NCBI GenBank assembly: GCA_903892635.1
Contig: CAITJH010000086.1
Location: forward strand, 1-36,226
Length of the DNA stretch: 36,226 bases
Source of the DNA: an uncultured Actinomycetes bacterium
GTDB taxonomy: Bacteria; Actinomycetota; Actinomycetes; S36-B12; UBA5976
Direction of reading: 5' to 3'
Numbering within the stretch: the stretch's first letter is position 1; the number at the start of each line of letters is the position of its first letter. The notes beneath the pieces are model-generated. The model saw only the letters and a list, made by a program, of their open reading frames with translations. It was not told where the DNA came from and searched no databases. Positions 3,144-21,489 of this stretch are shown here, one piece after another. Position numbers and translations under genes: made by a program.

Positions 3144-4481
3144 GTGGATAAGCAAACAGAATTCGTATTACGCACCATGGAAGAGCGCGACATTCGTTTC
3201 GTGCGCCTCTGGTTCACTGACGTGCTCGGCACGCTTAAATCAGTTGCTATTGCTCCAGCCGAGCTTGAAGGTGCCTTTGCCGAGGGTATTGGTTTTGACG
3301 GATCAGCGATCGAAGGGTTCGCCCGAGTATATGAATCCGACATGTTAGCCAAGCCAGATCCTGAAACGTTCGCGGTGTTGCCATGGCGCGGAGAAGAGCA
3401 AGGCGTTGCCCGCATGTTCTGCGACATCATGTTGCCAGATGGATCTGCTTCGTTTGCTGATCCTCGAAATGTGCTAACTCGGCAACTCGCAAAAGCAGCA
3501 GATCTTGGATTTACTTTTTATACACATCCAGAAATTGAATTCTTCTTGTTTAAAGATCAACCAGAACGTGGCAAGCGTCCCGTACCAGTGGATGAAGTTG
3601 GATACTTTGATCACTCACCACTTGGAATTGGTTATGACTTCCGTCGAACGGCGATCACGATGTTGGAGTCGATGGGGATTTCTGTTGAGTTCAGTCATCA
3701 TGAGGGAGCACCCGGTCAACAAGAGATCGATTTACGTTATGCCGATGCTCTGACTACGGCAGACAACATCATGACATTTCGGGCTGTGATGAAGGAGGTT
3801 GCCTTGTCTCAAGGTGTCTACGCATCATTCATGCCCAAGCCGTTTGCTGAATATCCAGGGTCGGGAATGCATACGCACTTGTCACTTTTCGAAGGCGACC
3901 GGAATGCGTTTTACGAACCGAGCTCTGAATATCAATTGAGCAAGACTGGGCGTCAATTTATTGCGGGCTTGCTCAAGCACGCACCTGAGATAACAGCCGT
4001 AACTAACCAATGGGTGAATTCGTACAAGCGTCTAGGCGGTGGCGGCGAGGCTCCTTCGTACGTATGTTGGGGTCATAACAATCGTTCCGCATTAATTCGC
4101 GTTCCGATGTACAAGCCGAACAAGGGCAACTCGACGCGCATTGAATTCCGTTCTGTCGATTCTGCATGCAATCCATATTTGTCATTCGCCTTGATGCTCG
4201 CGGCTGGATTAAAGGGCATTCAGGAGGGATACGAGTTGCCACTTGGCGCTGAAGATGATGTGTGGTCGCTTACTGATGGTGAACGTGCAGCGTTAGGAAT
4301 TGAACGTTTGCCCGAGTCGCTCGGTCAGGCGATCAAGGTGATGGAGAAAAGTGAACTCGTAGCTGAAACGCTTGGCGAGCATGTTTTCGACTTCTTTTTG
4401 CGCAATAAGCGGGCAGAATGGCAGGAGTATCGATCGCAAGTAACTGCGTTCGAACTTGATCGCTATTTGCCGTTGCTCTAG
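3144..4481 (+). CDS. glnA2: Glutamine synthetase-family ligase GlnA2
   Basis: This is a class I glutamine synthetase-type enzyme, the orthologue of mycobacterial GlnA2 from the first residue (DKQTEFVLRTMEERDIRFVR). Family motifs are present: HPEIEFFL, EFSHHEGAPGQQEIDLR, GSGMHTHLSLF, NRSALIRVP and the NPYLSFALM segment. The tyrosine that GlnE adenylylates in GlnA1 is absent; the equivalent segment reads DVWSLTDGE, so it should escape that control. Its Streptomyces orthologue was shown to gamma-glutamylate polyamines, not ammonia, so the true substrate here is open. The start is GTG, fixed by homology; no good ribosome binding site is seen and an out-of-frame ATG sits 8 bases upstream. It is the first gene of an operon with a glutamine amidotransferase and glnE. 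Confidence 0.95.
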   Translation: MDKQTEFVLRTMEERDIRFVRLWFTDVLGTLKSVAIAPAELEGAFAEGIGFDGSAIEGFARVYESDMLAKPDPETFAVLPWRGEEQGVARMFCDIMLPDGSASFADPRNVLTRQLAKAADLGFTFYTHPEIEFFLFKDQPERGKRPVPVDEVGYFDHSPLGIGYDFRRTAITMLESMGISVEFSHHEGAPGQQEIDLRYADALTTADNIMTFRAVMKEVALSQGVYASFMPKPFAEYPGSGMHTHLSLFEGDRNAFYEPSSEYQLSKTGRQFIAGLLKHAPEITAVTNQWVNSYKRLGGGGEAPSYVCWGHNNRSALIRVPMYKPNKGNSTRIEFRSVDSACNPYLSFALMLAAGLKGIQEGYELPLGAEDDVWSLTDGERAALGIERLPESLGQAIKVMEKSELVAETLGEHVFDFFLRNKRAEWQEYRSQVTAFELDRYLPLL

Positions 4482-4505
4482 CAAAGAACAAGGAGTCTTT
4501 TCGTT

Positions 4506-5231
4506 ATGAATCCACGTGTGCTCGTTATCCAGAACGAAGAGTCGGCTCCAGCCAATATGGTCGGTGAGTGGCTTGAAGAGTGCGGTTTAGTTCTCGATGT
4601 GATTCATGCCTACGCCGGCGAGGACATCCCAGCGCACGTACCCAGTGATTATGCAGGAGTACTTGCTTTTGGCGGAGCAATGGGCGCCAACGACGATTCT
4701 GATTTTCGATGGCTGACAGCCGAGCGACAATTACTCGCAGATGCTGCACACAACGACGTGCCAACATTTGGAATTTGCTTGGGTGCACAGGTACTTGCAA
4801 CCGCAATAGGTGGAACGTCAACTCGGGCTGATGTCATTGAGATAGGTGCATATGAATTCGACGTACTTGATGTTGCTCGAAATGATTCGGTATTCGCAAC
4901 ACTTGCTGGATCTACGGTTAAGGCTGCTCAATGGCATCAGGATTGGATTGCAACATTGCCGACACAGGCTGTGGTCTTGGCATCCAACGACAACTGTCCT
5001 GTTCAAGCGTTTCGCTTTGGAAACAATGTCTATGGAGTTCAATTTCATCCTGAGGTAGATGCTGCTTCGTTTAAAGAGTGGTACAACGTGGCCGACGAAG
5101 CTGCGGATCGTTCAGGTATCGACATGGTGGTAGCCGTTGATCAGGTCCGCGAATCCGAATCCGAGATGATCGCTACGTGGCGTCCGGTATTTCATGCGTG
5201 GGCTGAAGTGGTCAAGCAGCGCCAAGAGTAA
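4506..5231 (+). CDS. Class I glutamine amidotransferase-like protein
   Basis: A stand-alone class I glutamine amidotransferase domain of 241 residues, resembling the GMP synthase glutaminase subfamily. The nucleophile elbow FGICLGAQVLA places the catalytic cysteine at residue 91, and GVQFHPEVD supplies His181 and Glu183, so the triad is complete. An oxyanion-type loop AFGGAMGANDD lies near residue 55. No synthetase domain follows it. It begins 24 bases after glnA2 behind AAGGAG and ends 2 bases before glnE, so the three genes are almost certainly one transcript. Enzymes of this fold hydrolyse gamma-glutamyl bonds, which would suit a partner of a gamma-glutamyl ligase, but the substrate is unknown. 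An ordinary glutaminase role is equally possible. Confidence 0.88.
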   Translation: MNPRVLVIQNEESAPANMVGEWLEECGLVLDVIHAYAGEDIPAHVPSDYAGVLAFGGAMGANDDSDFRWLTAERQLLADAAHNDVPTFGICLGAQVLATAIGGTSTRADVIEIGAYEFDVLDVARNDSVFATLAGSTVKAAQWHQDWIATLPTQAVVLASNDNCPVQAFRFGNNVYGVQFHPEVDAASFKEWYNVADEAADRSGIDMVVAVDQVRESESEMIATWRPVFHAWAEVVKQRQE

Positions 5232-5233
5232 CT

Positions 5234-8134
5234 ATGGCAACTTCGCGCGAGCCTTCATTACAGGCACGATTAGCACGACTTGGTTTTTCGCAGACTCAAG
5301 AATGTGCTGAAATCGTGGCACGGTTTCCTGTCATCGATCAGCATTTGGAAATGATTCGTACTGCAGCAGATCCAGATCAGGCAATACGCATGATTGGAGA
5401 CATTGTTGATAGCGGAGCGATCGATCCAACAGGATGGGACGATCAACAGTGGGGCAATGTTGTCGGAGTCTGTGGATCGTCAATAGCTCTTGCACAACAT
5501 CTAGTGCGTCATCCGACACAAGCGCATTATGTGGCGCATGCAAATTCAGTGCCAACTCGTGACGAACTTATCGAGTCACTGAAGAATTCGGTTCGTGGAT
5601 TGGATTGGGAAGAAGCGCTCATTGCTTTGCGAATCGCATACCGAAAAGAAGTGAGTGCGATCGCTGCGTTAGATATTGCAGCTGGATCGCGCAGTGTGAC
5701 AATTCTTCCAGGGATTGCGCATGCGTTGTCCGACCTTGCTGATGCTGTGGTGACAGTCGCACTCGATATTGCGCTAGTACATGTACCAGGCTCAAGTGCG
5801 ATTCGTATGGCCGTCATTGCGATGGGCAAATGTGGCGCTCGCGAACTTAATTACGTCAGCGATGTCGACGTCATTTTCGTCGCTGAACCTGCCAATGAAG
5901 TTGCCACTGAGGTTGCAAAGCGATTGATGAGTGTGTGCTCATCGGTTACTCCTGAGGGACAGATCTGGGAAGTCGATCCAGCGTTGCGCCCTGAAGGTAA
6001 GGCTGGGGCATTGGTACGCACGCTGGAGAGTCATAAGGACTATTACGATCGCTGGGCGCAGGATTGGGAGTACCAAGCTCTTCTCAAAGCGCGCCACATG
6101 GCTGGGGACATTGACCTTGGCACAGCGTTCGTAGATTCCGTTGCACCTCATGTCTGGCAAGCAGCAGGACGGAAAGGGTTCATTGAATCGGTTCAAGCAA
6201 TGCGCGAACGAGTCACAGAACTTATTCCCGCCAAAGAAGCAGAGCGCGAATTAAAACTAGGTCGTGGTGGACTTCGGGATGTTGAGTTTGCGGTTCAGCT
6301 TCTCCAAATGGTTCATGGTCGTAGCGATGACATGGTCCGAAGCCCAAATACTTTGGTTGCTCTCGAGCAATTAGCAACGTGGGGCTATGTCGGGCGTGAA
6401 GACGCGGCAACACTCTCGGATGCTTATCGTTTCTTGCGCACACTTGAACATCGCATTCAACTGTCACGAATGCGACGCACTCACACTGTTCCCACCGACG
6501 AACATGAGTTACGCGTTCTTGGTCGATCAATGGGCTATGTGCTCGAACCTGTTGATGAATTAACAAAAGAGTGGCGAAAACATGCGCGTGAAGTTCGACG
6601 AATTCACGAGAAGCTTTTTTATCGACCGCTCCTTGAAGCTGTAGCAAAATTGGATAGTGCTGATGCTCGATTGACTACTGAAGCAGCGCGGGTTCGACTT
6701 GAGGCACTTGGTTACAAGGATCCCGAAGGAGCGTTGCGTCACCTTGAAGCTATGACTTCTGGAGTAAGTCGGCGTGCGGCAATTCAACGTACTTTATTGC
6801 CTGTGATGCTTCAATGGTTTGCCGAGACTCCTGATCCTGATGCGGGACTTTTAGGGTTTCGACGAGTTTCTGATGCGCTAGGGAATTCACCGTGGTACCT
6901 GCGCTTGTTACGCGACGAATCGATTACAGCCGAACGTCTGGCAGTAGTGCTGGGAAGTAGCCACTATGCCACCGAATTGTTGATGAAATCTCCCGATGCC
7001 GTGAGTCTCTTAGCTGATGAAAATCTGCTTCAACCTCGAAGTCGCGATGAATTGCTGAGTGAGGCGCACGCAATCGCGAGTCGTTATGACGAGCCGGCAG
7101 GTGCTGTTGATGCCCTTCGTGCAATGCGTCGTCGTGAACTATTTCGGATCAGCGTTGCAGAAGTACTGAACCTCTCAGACATCGAGACCGTTGGCAATTC
7201 ATTGACCGATGTGACAGACGCAGTTATTCAAGGCGCTGTCGCTGCCATTTCGAGATCGATTGCTAACCTCCCGCGCTTTGCTGTGATTGCAATGGGTCGT
7301 TACGGTGGCGGCGAACTTGGTTTCGGTAGCGATGCTGATGTGATGTTTTGTTTCGATGACAGTGGTGATGCTCAAGAAGCGGGCCGAGCAGCTCATCAAC
7401 TTGCGAATGAGCTGCGCACATTGTTGATGGCGCCCAGTACTGATCCAGAACTCATTATTGATGCAGACTTGCGGCCTGAGGGTAAGAACGGTCCGATGGT
7501 TCGAAGTTTGGCCTCATTTGCCGCCTATTACGCTCGTTGGTCGGTTGGCTGGGAAACTCAAGCGCTCTTACGAGCTAACTTCGCCGCTGGAGATGAGTCG
7601 TTAGGTGCCGAATTTGTTGCTCTCATCAATCCACTGCGCTACTCACTGAATGGGTTAAGTGACGAAGCGTTGCTGGACATTCGGCGGTTAAAGGCACGGA
7701 TGGAATCCGAACGCTTGCCCCGTGGTGCTGAACCTGCACTTCACACCAAACTCGGTCCTGGAGGACTGTCGGACGTGGAATGGGTTGCACAGATTCTTCA
7801 GATGAATCATGGTCACGAGTGCGTTGATTTGCAGACGACAAGGACTGTTGAGGCATTGCGTGCGGCTCAGAATTTTCAATTGATCAGTCCATCCGATGCA
7901 GGTGCACTTATCGAATCATGGTCGTTAGTAACGCGCGTGCGAAACACCATGATGCTTATTAAGGGGCGTCCCAGTGACGTGCTGCCAAAGGATCCAATTG
8001 AGTTATCTCGACTTGCTCAATCTTTGGGCTATGGGCCGCGAGCCGGGCAACAATTTATCGATGACTATCGCCGAACAACCAGACGAGCACGTGGCGTAGT
8101 TATGCGTTTACTCTTTGGGCAAAGCGCCGAATAG
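5234..8134 (+). CDS. glnE: Bifunctional glutamine synthetase adenylyltransferase/deadenylase
   Basis: GlnE attaches AMP to, and removes it from, a tyrosine of GlnA1, tuning nitrogen assimilation to supply. Both nucleotidyltransferase domains are visible. The first has GKCGARELNYVSDVDVIF at about residues 198-215 (deadenylylation half) and the second GRYGGGELGFGSDADVMF at about 688-705 (adenylylation half). Each contains the G-S/N-D-x-D metal-binding core. Each half also ends in its own helical domain, with ELKLGRGGLRDVEF and TKLGPGGLSDVEW as matching motifs. The 966 residues are close to the usual 950-1000. The start ATG lies 2 bases after the amidotransferase stop, so translation is probably coupled. 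Its target GlnA1, with the conserved tyrosine, is encoded at 17418-18863 in the same window. The gene converges on the decarboxylase gene with a gap of 3 bases. Confidence 0.97.
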   Translation: MATSREPSLQARLARLGFSQTQECAEIVARFPVIDQHLEMIRTAADPDQAIRMIGDIVDSGAIDPTGWDDQQWGNVVGVCGSSIALAQHLVRHPTQAHYVAHANSVPTRDELIESLKNSVRGLDWEEALIALRIAYRKEVSAIAALDIAAGSRSVTILPGIAHALSDLADAVVTVALDIALVHVPGSSAIRMAVIAMGKCGARELNYVSDVDVIFVAEPANEVATEVAKRLMSVCSSVTPEGQIWEVDPALRPEGKAGALVRTLESHKDYYDRWAQDWEYQALLKARHMAGDIDLGTAFVDSVAPHVWQAAGRKGFIESVQAMRERVTELIPAKEAERELKLGRGGLRDVEFAVQLLQMVHGRSDDMVRSPNTLVALEQLATWGYVGREDAATLSDAYRFLRTLEHRIQLSRMRRTHTVPTDEHELRVLGRSMGYVLEPVDELTKEWRKHAREVRRIHEKLFYRPLLEAVAKLDSADARLTTEAARVRLEALGYKDPEGALRHLEAMTSGVSRRAAIQRTLLPVMLQWFAETPDPDAGLLGFRRVSDALGNSPWYLRLLRDESITAERLAVVLGSSHYATELLMKSPDAVSLLADENLLQPRSRDELLSEAHAIASRYDEPAGAVDALRAMRRRELFRISVAEVLNLSDIETVGNSLTDVTDAVIQGAVAAISRSIANLPRFAVIAMGRYGGGELGFGSDADVMFCFDDSGDAQEAGRAAHQLANELRTLLMAPSTDPELIIDADLRPEGKNGPMVRSLASFAAYYARWSVGWETQALLRANFAAGDESLGAEFVALINPLRYSLNGLSDEALLDIRRLKARMESERLPRGAEPALHTKLGPGGLSDVEWVAQILQMNHGHECVDLQTTRTVEALRAAQNFQLISPSDAGALIESWSLVTRVRNTMMLIKGRPSDVLPKDPIELSRLAQSLGYGPRAGQQFIDDYRRTTRRARGVVMRLLFGQSAE

Positions 8135-16938: not shown

Positions 16939-17319
16939 TTAGAGCAGGGGATACGAACCGTCTTCATCGTGCTTTTCGGTTCCAACGACTGCTGGGTTGA
17001 AAACGCAAATGAGCCGTAGGTCTGTAATGGCTGTGAGTTTGTGTCGGTCGTGCTTATCTAACGTGTACGAAACGCCGGGGTGGATTGAAAACACTTCATT
17101 GGTCGTCAGGTCTTGAACTTCGCCAGTTCCCTCAATGCAGAGGTTGGCTTCGATGTGATGTTTATATTCCAATGTCAGGCTTGTTCCAGCCTCGAGGAAT
17201 GTGTCGTGCAATGAAAATCCCACACCGTCGATGCGAGTCAGATGACGCACACTTGTGCCGCCGTTGAACTGCGAGTGGTTTGGGCCACCGATTAAATCTG
17301 CCTTATCTCTGATGATCAT
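16939..17319 (-). CDS. ectC: Ectoine synthase EctC, solitary (no ectA/ectB nearby)
   Basis: A 126-residue cupin matching ectoine synthase over its full length. EctC closes N-gamma-acetyl-diaminobutyrate into the compatible solute ectoine. The iron ligands known from EctC structures are at the same numbers here: Glu57 (HHIEANLCIEG), Tyr85 and His93 (YTLDKHDRH). Arg25, Thr40, Cys105, Phe107 and Glu115 also agree with the substrate-site residues as I recall them, while the usual Trp21 is Gly. The ending EDGSYPLL is close to the normal tail but short. No ectA, ectB, ectD or ask gene lies in the window. A leaderless -10 box fits the ATG at 17319. It is flanked by the glnA1 terminator hairpin and a peptidase gene. 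Confidence 0.88.
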   Translation of the reverse strand: MIIRDKADLIGGPNHSQFNGGTSVRHLTRIDGVGFSLHDTFLEAGTSLTLEYKHHIEANLCIEGTGEVQDLTTNEVFSIHPGVSYTLDKHDRHKLTAITDLRLICVFNPAVVGTEKHDEDGSYPLL

Positions 17320-17417: not shown

Positions 17418-18863
17418 CTAGATGTCGTAGTACAGTTCGAATTCGGCTGGATGTGGACGCAAGCGCACGTAGTCCACTTCTGCTTCGTTCTTGTAGTTGA
17501 TCCAGGTTTCGATGAGATCCTTGGTGAATACTCCACCTTCGAGCAAGTATTCGTGATCTGCTTCAAGTGCTGCTAGAACTTCTGGAAGTGTTCCTGGAAC
17601 CTGTGGGATGTCAGCTGCTTCCTCTGGTGGAAGTTCGTAGAGATCCTTATCGACAGGAGCGTGTGGCTCGATCTTGTTCTTGATGCCATCAAGGCCGGCC
17701 ATCAACATCGCTGCAAACGCCAAGTATGGGTTACTCGATGGATCTGGGCAGCGGAATTCGATGCGCTTGGCTTTCGGGTTGCTTCCGGTGATTGGAATTC
17801 GCAAGCAAGCCGAACGGTTGCGCTGGCTGTAAACCAAGTTCACTGGAGCTTCGTAACCCGGCACTAGACGGTGGAATGAGTTCACAGTTGGGTTGGTGAA
17901 AGCAAGAAGCGATGGAGCGTGCTTCAAGATGCCACCGATGTACCAGCGAGCCATGTCCGATAGTCCTGCGTAACCGCGCTCGTCGTAGAACAACGGGACG
18001 CCATCTGACCACAAGGACTGATGAACGTGCATGCCAGATCCGTTGTCGCCAAAGAGTGGCTTTGGCATGAAGGTTGCGGACTTACCAGCTTCCCAAGCAG
18101 TGTTGCGAATGACGTATTTGAACAGCATTACTTCGTCAGCGGCTTTGAGCAGGGTGTTGAACTTGTAGTTAATTTCCATCTGGCCAGCGGTACCGACTTC
18201 GTGGTGCGAACGCTCGACGAGCAAACCAACTTCGGCAAGCTTGACGACCATGTGATCGCGAAGGTCTGCCATCTGGTCGGTTGGTGCCACAGGGAAATAG
18301 CCACCCTTAACGCGTGTCTTATAGCCACGGTTGTCGGATCCATCGGCGTTGAATTCAGCACCTGAGTTCCAAGCGCCTTCAATGGAATCCACGTGATGGA
18401 ATGAATGGTTGATGCCGGTTGAGTAGCGAACTGAATCAAAGATGAAGAATTCTGCTTCTGGAGCGAAGAATGCTGTGTCTGCGATACCAGTGGATTTGAG
18501 GTATGCCTCGGCCTTTGCTGCAACGTTACGTGGGTCGCGGCTGTAAGGCTCATCGGTGAATGGATCGCGAACTGAGAAGTTCATGACCAAGGTCTTTTCC
18601 TTGCGGAATGGATCAACAAATGCCGTGGTTGGGTCAGCAATGAGCTTCATGTCAGATTCGTGAATCTGCTGGAAGCCACGAATTGATGAGCCATCAAACA
18701 TCTGGCCGCCGGTGAAGAACGCTTCATCGACTGATTCCACGGGAACGTTGAAGTGCTGCATTACGCCAGGTAGATCGCAAAAGCGAACGTCGACAAAACG
18801 AATGTTGTTGTCTGCTATGTACTTCAGTACATCTGCTGCGCTGGTGAGTCCAAGGTTGGACAT
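17418..18863 (-). CDS. glnA: Glutamine synthetase type I (GlnA1)
   Basis: The main ammonia-assimilating enzyme: glutamate + NH3 + ATP to glutamine, a dodecamer in the cytosol. Motifs include FDGSSIRGF, the metal ligands in [12 protein letters not shown] and [15 protein letters not shown], the ATP/glutamate site [20 protein letters not shown], and [19 protein letters not shown]. The adenylylation tyrosine is present in [11 protein letters not shown] at about residue 409, so GlnE can control it. At 481 residues it has the length of the beta-type enzyme of Actinobacteria. The ATG follows GGAGG closely. Four GlnR half-sites lie upstream (18940-18977), showing a second, transcriptional control. 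A terminator hairpin follows the gene. Confidence 0.98.
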
Positions 18864-18939
18864 TCATCCTCCATGTATAAGTAGTCGCCTCTGGGGAAGT
18901 GGTCGATTGTGACCGTTACCGCAAAGGTAGGGCATGGCG

Positions 18940-18977
18940 ATTTCACAGTCGTATCCCGAATGTTTCACTTATGTTAC
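18940..18977 (-). promoter_or_regulatory. GlnR operator upstream of glnA1 (four half-sites)
   Basis: Read on the minus strand the sequence is GTAAC-N6-GAAAC-N6-GATAC-N6-GAAAT, with each spacer exactly 6 bases. The Streptomyces GlnR consensus alternates gTnAc and GAAAc half-sites with the same spacing, and the AC-N9-AC rule also holds for the first three. It ends about 77 bases upstream of the glnA1 start codon, a usual position for an activator/repressor of nitrogen assimilation. Confidence 0.8.
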
Positions 18978-19000
18978 GTCTTGACCGTGTCGCAAGATGC

Positions 19001-20131
19001 TCAGAGTTTGTAGGCGCGATGAGCGTTTTCGGACGCCATCCACGTGAGGTATTTCCGCGCGTCGCTTTCACCCATAGCGTCTGAATCTACCCAGCCCTGC
19101 ATGATGTCACCGATTGCTTGTCGCCAAATTGCTGCGCCGCAGTAGTAGAGCTCTGGTAGTCCAAAAGCATCAGACGAGAAGAGCACTTTGCCAAATGGCG
19201 CCATTTCAACGCTGTGACGAATCAAACTTGCATGTTCTGGGCCGGTGTAGTTAATTGCAGCGCCAGTGTCCAGGAACACGTGAGGAAACACGTGGGCAAG
19301 ATAGCCTGCCTCACGTATGAAAGGGTAGCAATGCAACAGCATGATGTTTGTTCCGGAGTCAACTGTTCGACGTAGGAACTCAGTCATTTGAGTCGGGTCG
19401 CATCGGTGCAGGTTGATATCAGAATCGCCAAAACCAACATGGAATTGGATGGGTTTCTTGTGGCTCACCGCTTCCCACAAGACATGGCGCAATAGAACTG
19501 GATGTGACAACCGAATCTTGTCGGTAGCTTCGATTTCTGCAATCCACTCTGCCGCTGCTGCAGCGACCTCGGATTCCGAAGGCTTCTCTGGATCAAAATC
19601 AAGTCCGTAGCGATACGCGATGATTGATTTGAAGCCAACCGCATCCTTACTTTCTTCTGCAAGGTACTTGGCATAGTCAGCACTGAACGCGGTGGCCGAG
19701 GATGACGTGATCATTCGCTCAGCCGCAGTCTCGAGTCGAACAATTTCAACCGCACGACCATTTCCGACCGCTGCCAACTGGTCGGGAGTCAGAATGTTGT
19801 CGCTCTTAAAGCCCGTGTCAACGATGAATGTTTCAATTCCTGTCAGCGGAAGCAACTTTTCAGCGAGTGCTGTTTGTCCGATTTCACGTCGTCGAGTCCA
19901 GTACTCATCTGGTGAGCAGTGTTTTTTTAGGCCAAGCAGTGGTGCAACAAGAGCACGAGTCAGCACACCAAACTGTTCATCAAGTACAGATAATCCATTG
20001 CGAGGCAACCAGTCGCCCTCGGTGGCGTAAATCTCGTATTGGTCGCGTTCTATTTCATGATTGATGGTGCCGTGGCAATGGTTGTCAATCAGTGGTATTT
20101 CTGCTGCTAGTTGTCGTATCTGTTGTCCCAT
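19001..20131 (-). CDS. Amidohydrolase family protein, FluG N-terminal-like
   Basis: A 376-residue metal-dependent hydrolase of the amidohydrolase-2 fold. The metal ligands are in order: HxH in IDNHCHG (His18 and His20), a His in IQFHVGFGD, a His in MLLHCYPF and an Asp in LFSSDAFGLPE. The sequence resembles the N-terminal half of FluG/nodulin-GS proteins, in which this domain is fused to a GS-type ligase. Here the ligase is the divergent gene starting at 20176. That suggests hydrolysis of a gamma-glutamyl or amide product, but the substrate is unknown. A TAGCCT box 6 bases before the ATG indicates a leaderless mRNA. The stop lies just upstream of the glnA1 GlnR box. Confidence 0.88.
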   Translation of the reverse strand: MGQQIRQLAAEIPLIDNHCHGTINHEIERDQYEIYATEGDWLPRNGLSVLDEQFGVLTRALVAPLLGLKKHCSPDEYWTRRREIGQTALAEKLLPLTGIETFIVDTGFKSDNILTPDQLAAVGNGRAVEIVRLETAAERMITSSSATAFSADYAKYLAEESKDAVGFKSIIAYRYGLDFDPEKPSESEVAAAAAEWIAEIEATDKIRLSHPVLLRHVLWEAVSHKKPIQFHVGFGDSDINLHRCDPTQMTEFLRRTVDSGTNIMLLHCYPFIREAGYLAHVFPHVFLDTGAAINYTGPEHASLIRHSVEMAPFGKVLFSSDAFGLPELYYCGAAIWRQAIGDIMQGWVDSDAMGESDARKYLTWMASENAHRAYKL

Positions 20132-20136
20132 AAACG

Positions 20137-20143
20137 TAGGCTA
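20137..20143. promoter_or_regulatory. Shared bidirectional -10 element of the amidohydrolase/GS-like pair
   Basis: The heptamer TAGGCTA reads TAGGCT on the plus strand and TAGCCT on the minus strand. The minus reading sits 6 bases from the amidohydrolase ATG (leaderless). The plus reading would give the GS-like gene a leader of about 27 bases containing AAGGAG. One element may therefore serve both directions. Confidence 0.5.
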
Positions 20144-20175
20144 TCTAGTAGAAGGTGCGTTAAGGAGAAAATGGC

Positions 20176-21489
20176 ATGAGTGATAGCGATCTCGTATTAT
20201 TGGCATGGAGTGATTATGTAGGAATCACGCGTGTCCGAGGGCTTGTCTCCGAAATTTATCCCAAGCGCATGACAACCGGAATTGGTTGGGCGGTTGCCGG
20301 GCAAGTGTTGACGCCTTTTGAGGAACTAGGCCCAAATCCATGGGGCTCAATGATGGAAGTACGTCAAGTGCCGGTAGCCGATACGTTTCGCACGATTGAT
20401 ATTTGGAATGACGCACCTCCTTTGGCGATGGTTCTGTGTGATGCTCGCACGCTCGAAGGGCAACTGTGGGAATGTGGCACTCGAACCTTTTATCAGAATG
20501 CACTTGAAGATTTCCGCGCAGAAACTGGTCTGGAATTTATCGCTGCGTTTGAGCATGAATTCCAATTGCTTGGGGTTGAAGGACCAGATGCGCCACCATT
20601 TTCAATTGAACATGTGCGTAAAGTACCGCAGTTCGTGAATGATCTGGCCCGCGCTTTGAAACAAGCTGATGTGGATGTTGAATCAATCGAACCCGAGTTT
20701 GGCGTGAACCAGTTTGAGGTTACGACAGGTCCTGCAGTTGGACTGGCTGCAGCGGACAATCCGATAATTGTTCGCGAAGTTATTCGAGAAGTTGCTCGTC
20801 GATTGGGCTATCGAGCAACATTTACTCCAAAGCCAACACCTGACTCCGTTGGGAATGGTGCTCATGTGCACCTTAGTTTCTTGGATCAACAAGGTAACAA
20901 TGCGACTTATGATTCCAGCCAACCTGGAGATGCAAGCGTCATTGCACAACACTTCATCGCTGGAGTAGTGAAGTACTTGCCGTCGTTGTGTGCATACATG
21001 GCCTCTAGTCCTGTGTCGTACATGCGTCTTGGTCCACATCACTGGGCGTGCGGTTTCGCGAGCTTTGGAATTCAGAATCGTGAAGCGGGTATTCGCATTT
21101 GTCCATCTCCTGATCCTGATCCTGCAAAACAAGCGCGCTCATTCAATCTGGAGGTTCGCGCTCCAGATGCGACAGCAAGTCCGTATATCGTGCTTGGTTC
21201 GCTCATTCGTGCAGGGCTTCAGGGAATTCGCGACGAGTTGCCACTGCCGCCTGCGGTGGATGGCGACCCTGCAGATCTCACGCAGGAACAACGGAACGAG
21301 ATGGGAATTGTTGCCCTGCCAACAAGTCTTGCTGAAGCGCTCGACGTTTTGGATGCTGATCCCATCGCGCGATCGTGGATGCCTGAACTCATGTACCAGT
21401 GTTTTACGGGAGTTAAACGTACTGAAATTGCACTCGCTGCTGCCTACACTGACGAGCAATTGTGTGAACGTTACCGAAACGTCTATTAG
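20176..21489 (+). CDS. Glutamine synthetase-like gamma-glutamyl ligase (FluG C-terminal/GlnA3-GlnA4 type)
   Basis: A 437-residue GS-fold ligase, more divergent than the other two. Catalytic motifs are kept: FEHEFQLL and EPEFGVNQFEVTTGP (metal ligands), GNGAHVHLSF (glutamate/ATP site), NREAGIRIC and VRAPDATASPYIVLG, where the usual Asn before PY is Ser. It lacks the adenylylation-loop tyrosine. Such enzymes join glutamate to amines other than ammonia (polyamines, ethanolamine, isopropylamine or anilines in studied cases). The ATG at 20176 follows AAGGAG by 8 bases. The divergent amidohydrolase, 44 bases away, matches the other half of FluG. The amine substrate cannot be read from sequence. Confidence 0.9.
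   Translation: MSDSDLVLLAWSDYVGITRVRGLVSEIYPKRMTTGIGWAVAGQVLTPFEELGPNPWGSMMEVRQVPVADTFRTIDIWNDAPPLAMVLCDARTLEGQLWECGTRTFYQNALEDFRAETGLEFIAAFEHEFQLLGVEGPDAPPFSIEHVRKVPQFVNDLARALKQADVDVESIEPEFGVNQFEVTTGPAVGLAAADNPIIVREVIREVARRLGYRATFTPKPTPDSVGNGAHVHLSFLDQQGNNATYDSSQPGDASVIAQHFIAGVVKYLPSLCAYMASSPVSYMRLGPHHWACGFASFGIQNREAGIRICPSPDPDPAKQARSFNLEVRAPDATASPYIVLGSLIRAGLQGIRDELPLPPAVDGDPADLTQEQRNEMGIVALPTSLAEALDVLDADPIARSWMPELMYQCFTGVKRTEIALAAAYTDEQLCERYRNVY

Follow-up and report, generated by a model that had tools for sequence, protein, structure and literature searches.

A stretch of 36,226 nucleotides from an uncultured Actinomycetes bacterium (the window) was analyzed around glnA (glnA1), which encodes a type I glutamine synthetase (GSI). 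As summarized in Table 1, glnA lies on the minus strand and is preceded by a 38-bp element that we predict to be a GlnR operator, by a -10 hexamer and by a Shine-Dalgarno-like sequence. The GlnA translation contains DLYELPPEE, the site of the presumed adenylylated Tyr, and GlnE, also encoded in the window, is presumed to control GlnA post-translationally.

Table 1. Features of the glnA region and of the genes for its predicted regulators
Feature	Position	Strand	Evidence or remark
Predicted GlnR operator, four half-sites, 11-bp period	18940..18977	-	sequence; score 16/18; conserved in relatives
Half-site a1, GTAAC	18973-18977	-	
Half-site b1, GAAAC	18962-18966	-	
Half-site a2, GATAC	18951-18955	-	
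Half-site b2, GAAAT	18940-18944	-	
-10 hexamer TACCTT	18924..18929	-	exactly 10 bp downstream of operator; TANNNT at same offset in 97/97 loci
Shine-Dalgarno-like GGAGG of glnA	18868..18872	-	sequence
glnA, type I glutamine synthetase, 481 aa	17418..18863	-	TIGR00653, 674.9 bits
Amidohydro_2 family gene	19001..20131	-	PF04909; stop 23 bp upstream of operator; neighbor, outside operator
glnE, GS adenylyltransferase/deadenylase	5234..8134	+	PRK14109, 1273.6 bits (cut-off 625)
glnR	G000:C45:16030-16734	minus	8hih, E = 1.5 × 10−79; PF00486, 104.6 bits

Upstream of glnA1, the Amidohydro_2 gene stands back to back with a third, divergent GS-like gene (19001-21489); the best NCBIfam model for the latter, gamma-glutamylputrescine synthetase, scored below its cut-off, and the pairing recalls FluG, an amidohydrolase-GS fusion. 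Among 30 whole-genome glnA loci (L091-L120), an amidohydrolase beside glnA was found only in the window's genome and its two closest sisters (L092 and L093), and one named locus, L024 (Micromonospora), also had an amidohydrolase match. Immediately downstream of glnA is an ectoine synthase-like gene (16939-17319; PRK13290, 152 bits). Some 9 kb from glnA1, the plus strand carries in succession (3144-8134) a second GS gene (445 aa), a gene resembling class I glutamine amidotransferases, and glnE; this second GS gene may be equivalent to the glnA2 of other actinobacteria.

Read on the minus strand from 18977 to 18940, the element is GTAAC ATAAGT GAAAC ATTCGG GATAC GACTGT GAAAT, in which alternating gTnAc and GaAAc half-sites are separated by 6-bp spacers throughout, giving the 11-bp period of an actinomycete GlnR operator. 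An earlier note on this DNA had given these half-sites, their strand and their exact spacing correctly to the base; its statement that the operator abuts the 3′ end of the amidohydrolase gene was loosely right as to adjacency, but 23 bp separate the operator from the stop codon. Scored against the Streptomyces a-b-a-b consensus (GTnAC/GAAAC), the element reached 16/18, in agreement with the proposed match to the Streptomyces GlnR layout. This is the top score in the window, the runner-up among ~72,000 positions on both strands being 13/18. From base composition, the chance of a score of at least 16/18 is ~2 × 10−8 per position, ~1.5 × 10−3 for the whole window and ~2 × 10−6 for the glnA upstream region. 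The literal four-half-site pattern with 0 mismatches matched the 1.68-Mb genome at the glnA operator alone. After dinucleotide shuffling of the window, 12 of 100 shuffles held a match with no more than 3 mismatches, compared with a single 0-mismatch match in the unshuffled window, a comparison that flatters the operator since the pattern was derived from it. The departures from the Streptomyces consensus are two, GATAC instead of GTnAC at a2 and the terminal T of b2; because position 2 of a2 is an A in 18 of 18 sites from the genus, this is a lineage form.

Conservation was determined at glnA loci from 80 named genomes and from relatives of the window's genome, which together gave 105 upstream regions long enough for the test. 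With a period of 11, the operator score was at least 13/18 in 97 and at least 15/18 in 83 of these 105 regions, and the mean best score was 15.1, versus 9.9 to 10.5 at periods 8 to 10 and 12 to 14, at which at most 5 of the 105 attained 13/18. For 300 letter-permuted consensuses, the mean best score did not exceed 11.9, and none had more than one region at 15. Information content over the 18 genus sites was 1.88 bits in the half-sites versus 0.99 in the spacers and 0.32 in the upstream flank, and the corresponding values for 69 named actinobacteria were 1.46, 0.55 and 0.17 bits; since score-based site selection inflates the half-site values, the permuted and shifted-period controls are the fairer test. 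A sequence-only model built on 24 sites recovered the operator in genomes outside its training (e.g., G021, G051, G037 and G042), its match in the window's own genome being by construction. The hexamer TANNNT lay exactly 10 bp downstream in each of the 97 regions scoring at least 13, and it had no part in the selection of sites. These results indicated that the operator is conserved ahead of glnA, within the genus as well as across Actinomycetes and in relatives both near and distant, a point on which the earlier note had made its reading depend.

The same tests bear on whether the repeats are merely a chance arrangement in intergenic DNA, a reading that could draw on the shortness of the half-sites and on the genome-wide occurrence of looser versions at about the control rate. 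Conservation in 97 of 105 upstream regions, at period 11 only and with an invariant -10 spacing, refuted it, and we assign it a negligible probability. The comparative picture of the promoter is two boxes, 10 bp and then TANNNT. One genus member, G011 (L109), apparently has a single a-b box (GTAAC-N6-GAAAC) at an unchanged distance from the -10 hexamer, which would fit a loss of the distal box.

No sigma-70-type promoter having a -35 hexamer was detected in 18700-19100; where that hexamer would lie is the proximal box. Together with the fixed 10-bp spacing, this arrangement fits a class II activator promoter. Judged from the position of the -10 hexamer, the 5′ leader of glnA would be ~53 nt.

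The genome encodes six proteins that carry an OmpR-type DNA-binding domain, among them the GlnR homologue on whose presence the earlier note had staked its reading beforehand. Its closest solved structure is 8hih (E = 1.5 × 10−79), which we take to be M. tuberculosis GlnR, followed by the related 8hig (E = 2.7 × 10−77), and its DNA-binding domain is nearly identical to that of M. tuberculosis GlnR. Asp50 and Arg52, residues of the unphosphorylated GlnR dimer type (PMC10704036), are kept (VDGR at 49-52), and like the DNA-binding domain they are features of GlnR. GlnR proteins are atypical, orphan response regulators of the OmpR/PhoB family, with no neighboring sensor kinase gene. Judged by eye, the ORFs within 3.5 kb downstream and 2.8 kb upstream of glnR (acetyltransferase, thioredoxin-like and others) included none resembling a histidine kinase. 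A GlnR was detected in each of 34 good-quality relatives, and none of the 24 genera searched lacked one.

Two others of the six OmpR-type proteins are a clear MtrA (2.2 × 10−88 to 2gwr) and a RegX3-type regulator (7.7 × 10−102 to 2oqr), and the repeats might be read mainly by MtrA or a PhoP/RegX3-type regulator with GlnR in a secondary role, or the site might be shared, with MtrA repressing in rich conditions. There is precedent in Streptomyces, where MtrA binds GlnR boxes, those of glnA included (PMC6988585), and PhoP competes with GlnR at glnA (PMC9045223). Streptomyces MtrA sites resemble the element in being direct repeats, there overlapping GlnR boxes (PMC6988585), but they consist of 6-nt repeats with a 5-nt gap, and MtrA represses nitrogen genes whereas GlnR activates them. 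The a-b alternation and the association with glnA and amtB are the GlnR pattern, and in Streptomyces, where tested, GlnR has the decisive role (PMC10704036). We consider it improbable that MtrA or a PhoP/RegX3-type regulator accounts for the site in these ways; by analogy, shared use of the operator is quite possible, and its sole use by MtrA is unlikely.

We are highly confident that the 38-bp element serves as the GlnR operator in a class II-type glnA promoter, with GlnR acting as an activator and GlnE adding adenylylation. GlnR, probably as two head-to-tail dimers, would occupy both a-b boxes in the -35 place and recruit RNA polymerase to TACCTT, the -10 hexamer that lies 10 bp beyond them. 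GSI would accordingly be produced under nitrogen shortage, and when the nitrogen supply is ample GlnE would tune its activity by adenylylation. What was observed here is the operator sequence, its conservation at an invariant distance from the -10 hexamer, and genes for GlnR, GlnA and GlnE; by analogy with Streptomyces and mycobacteria, GlnR would bind and activate, and GlnE would adenylylate. In the GlnR transcription activation complex, four DNA-binding domains are arranged head to tail on the promoter, and at glnA two boxes are needed and GlnR control is positive (PMC10704036). The GSI of S. coelicolor is subject both to positive control by GlnR and to adenylylation by GlnE, the latter independent of GlnK/GlnD (PMC10704036). 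Given glnE in the window and DLYELPPEE in GlnA, dual control is the expected reading, and the earlier proposal that GlnR and GlnE together control GlnA was soundly drawn. Counting against this explanation, a2 and b2 are each one base off the Streptomyces consensus, and MtrA and RegX3-type regulators might read similar repeats.

The closest known counterpart is the glnA GlnR operator of S. coelicolor, for which a-b-a-b half-sites with 6-bp spacers before a type I GS gene are described in the account of Tiffert et al. (2008) given in PMC10704036. The Streptomyces glnA loci that we compared have the layout of the window, including the 10-bp spacing to TANNNT, but differ from it at a2 (GTnAC there, GATAC here) and a1 (TTAAC there, GTAAC here), and the GC content of the window (51%) is lower than that of Streptomyces.

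The genome was then searched for a wider regulon using patterns and the sequence-only model, with reversed-pattern controls, and no convincing GlnR site beyond glnA emerged relative to those controls; as a key to the GlnR regulon of the lineage, the use suggested earlier, the motif yielded little. When up to 3 mismatches were allowed, the four-half-site pattern gave three weaker sites besides glnA, which were discarded (4 in total versus 5 for the reversed control); by eye, the best of them lies between genes resembling phoH and uppS. A stricter pattern (a-b, 10 bp, TANNNT) gave no site in the window's genome. Matches to an a-b-x-b pattern with one mismatch were likewise rejected (24 versus 16 for the control in the window's genome, 71 versus 89 in five relatives taken together); at glnA the match to this pattern was exact in 6 of 6 genomes, with one further exact match each in G015 and G016.

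The other classical GlnR target is amtB. Relatives that have this gene carry, by eye, GTCAC-N6-GAAAC-N17-G(A/C)AAC boxes upstream of it, and these boxes provide a positive control for this group's GlnR system. Like the glnA operator, they have an a-b box with a 6-bp spacer, but they show a degenerate third half-site, and 17 bp separate their first box from the final half-site (a1-b1-b2 type). Searches of the window's genome for AmtB, PII and GlnD found none, the GlnD search having no positive control. In the sister species G022, the gene order is ftsY-amidase-amtB-glnK-glnD, and the ftsY-carrying contig of the window's genome (C64) ends 85 bp past a similar amidase, where amtB-glnK-glnD starts in G022. 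Since C64 ends at this very place, a single assembly gap could explain all three absences, and gene loss was dropped as an account of them.

The AmtB search likewise gave no match in a further six members of the genus with a completeness of at least 90% (G001, G010, G013, G014, G015 and G016), all of which have GlnR and the operator. Among these six, the PII search gave a divergent PII-like match only in G013, G014 and G015 and none in G001, G010 and G016. This divergent protein, seen in these three and other AmtB-less members, matched at E ~1 × 10−16 versus ~1 × 10−31 for a normal GlnK. Because several near-complete relatives keep glnR and the full operator but gave no AmtB match, and some of them no PII match either, GlnR could in part of the genus have been reduced from a global regulator to one with hardly any target but glnA, a suggestion we offer tentatively and think on balance doubtful. 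The window's genome, with its contig break at the expected amtB place, may be among these members.

The operator is real but ordinary, a standard GlnR operator with a layout known from most actinobacteria; as related in PMC10704036, the glnA GlnR operator has been described for actinomycetes generally since Tiffert et al. (2008). Experimental studies of this lineage were not found in the literature. The accepted view is unchanged, as GlnR/GlnE control of glnA and the sharing of sites with MtrA and PhoP are established biology. What is modestly new is the persistence of the operator in relatives for which the amtB search was negative. Judged from its draft genomes, through which it is known here, this small-genome actinobacterial lineage appears to retain the standard GlnR control of glnA.
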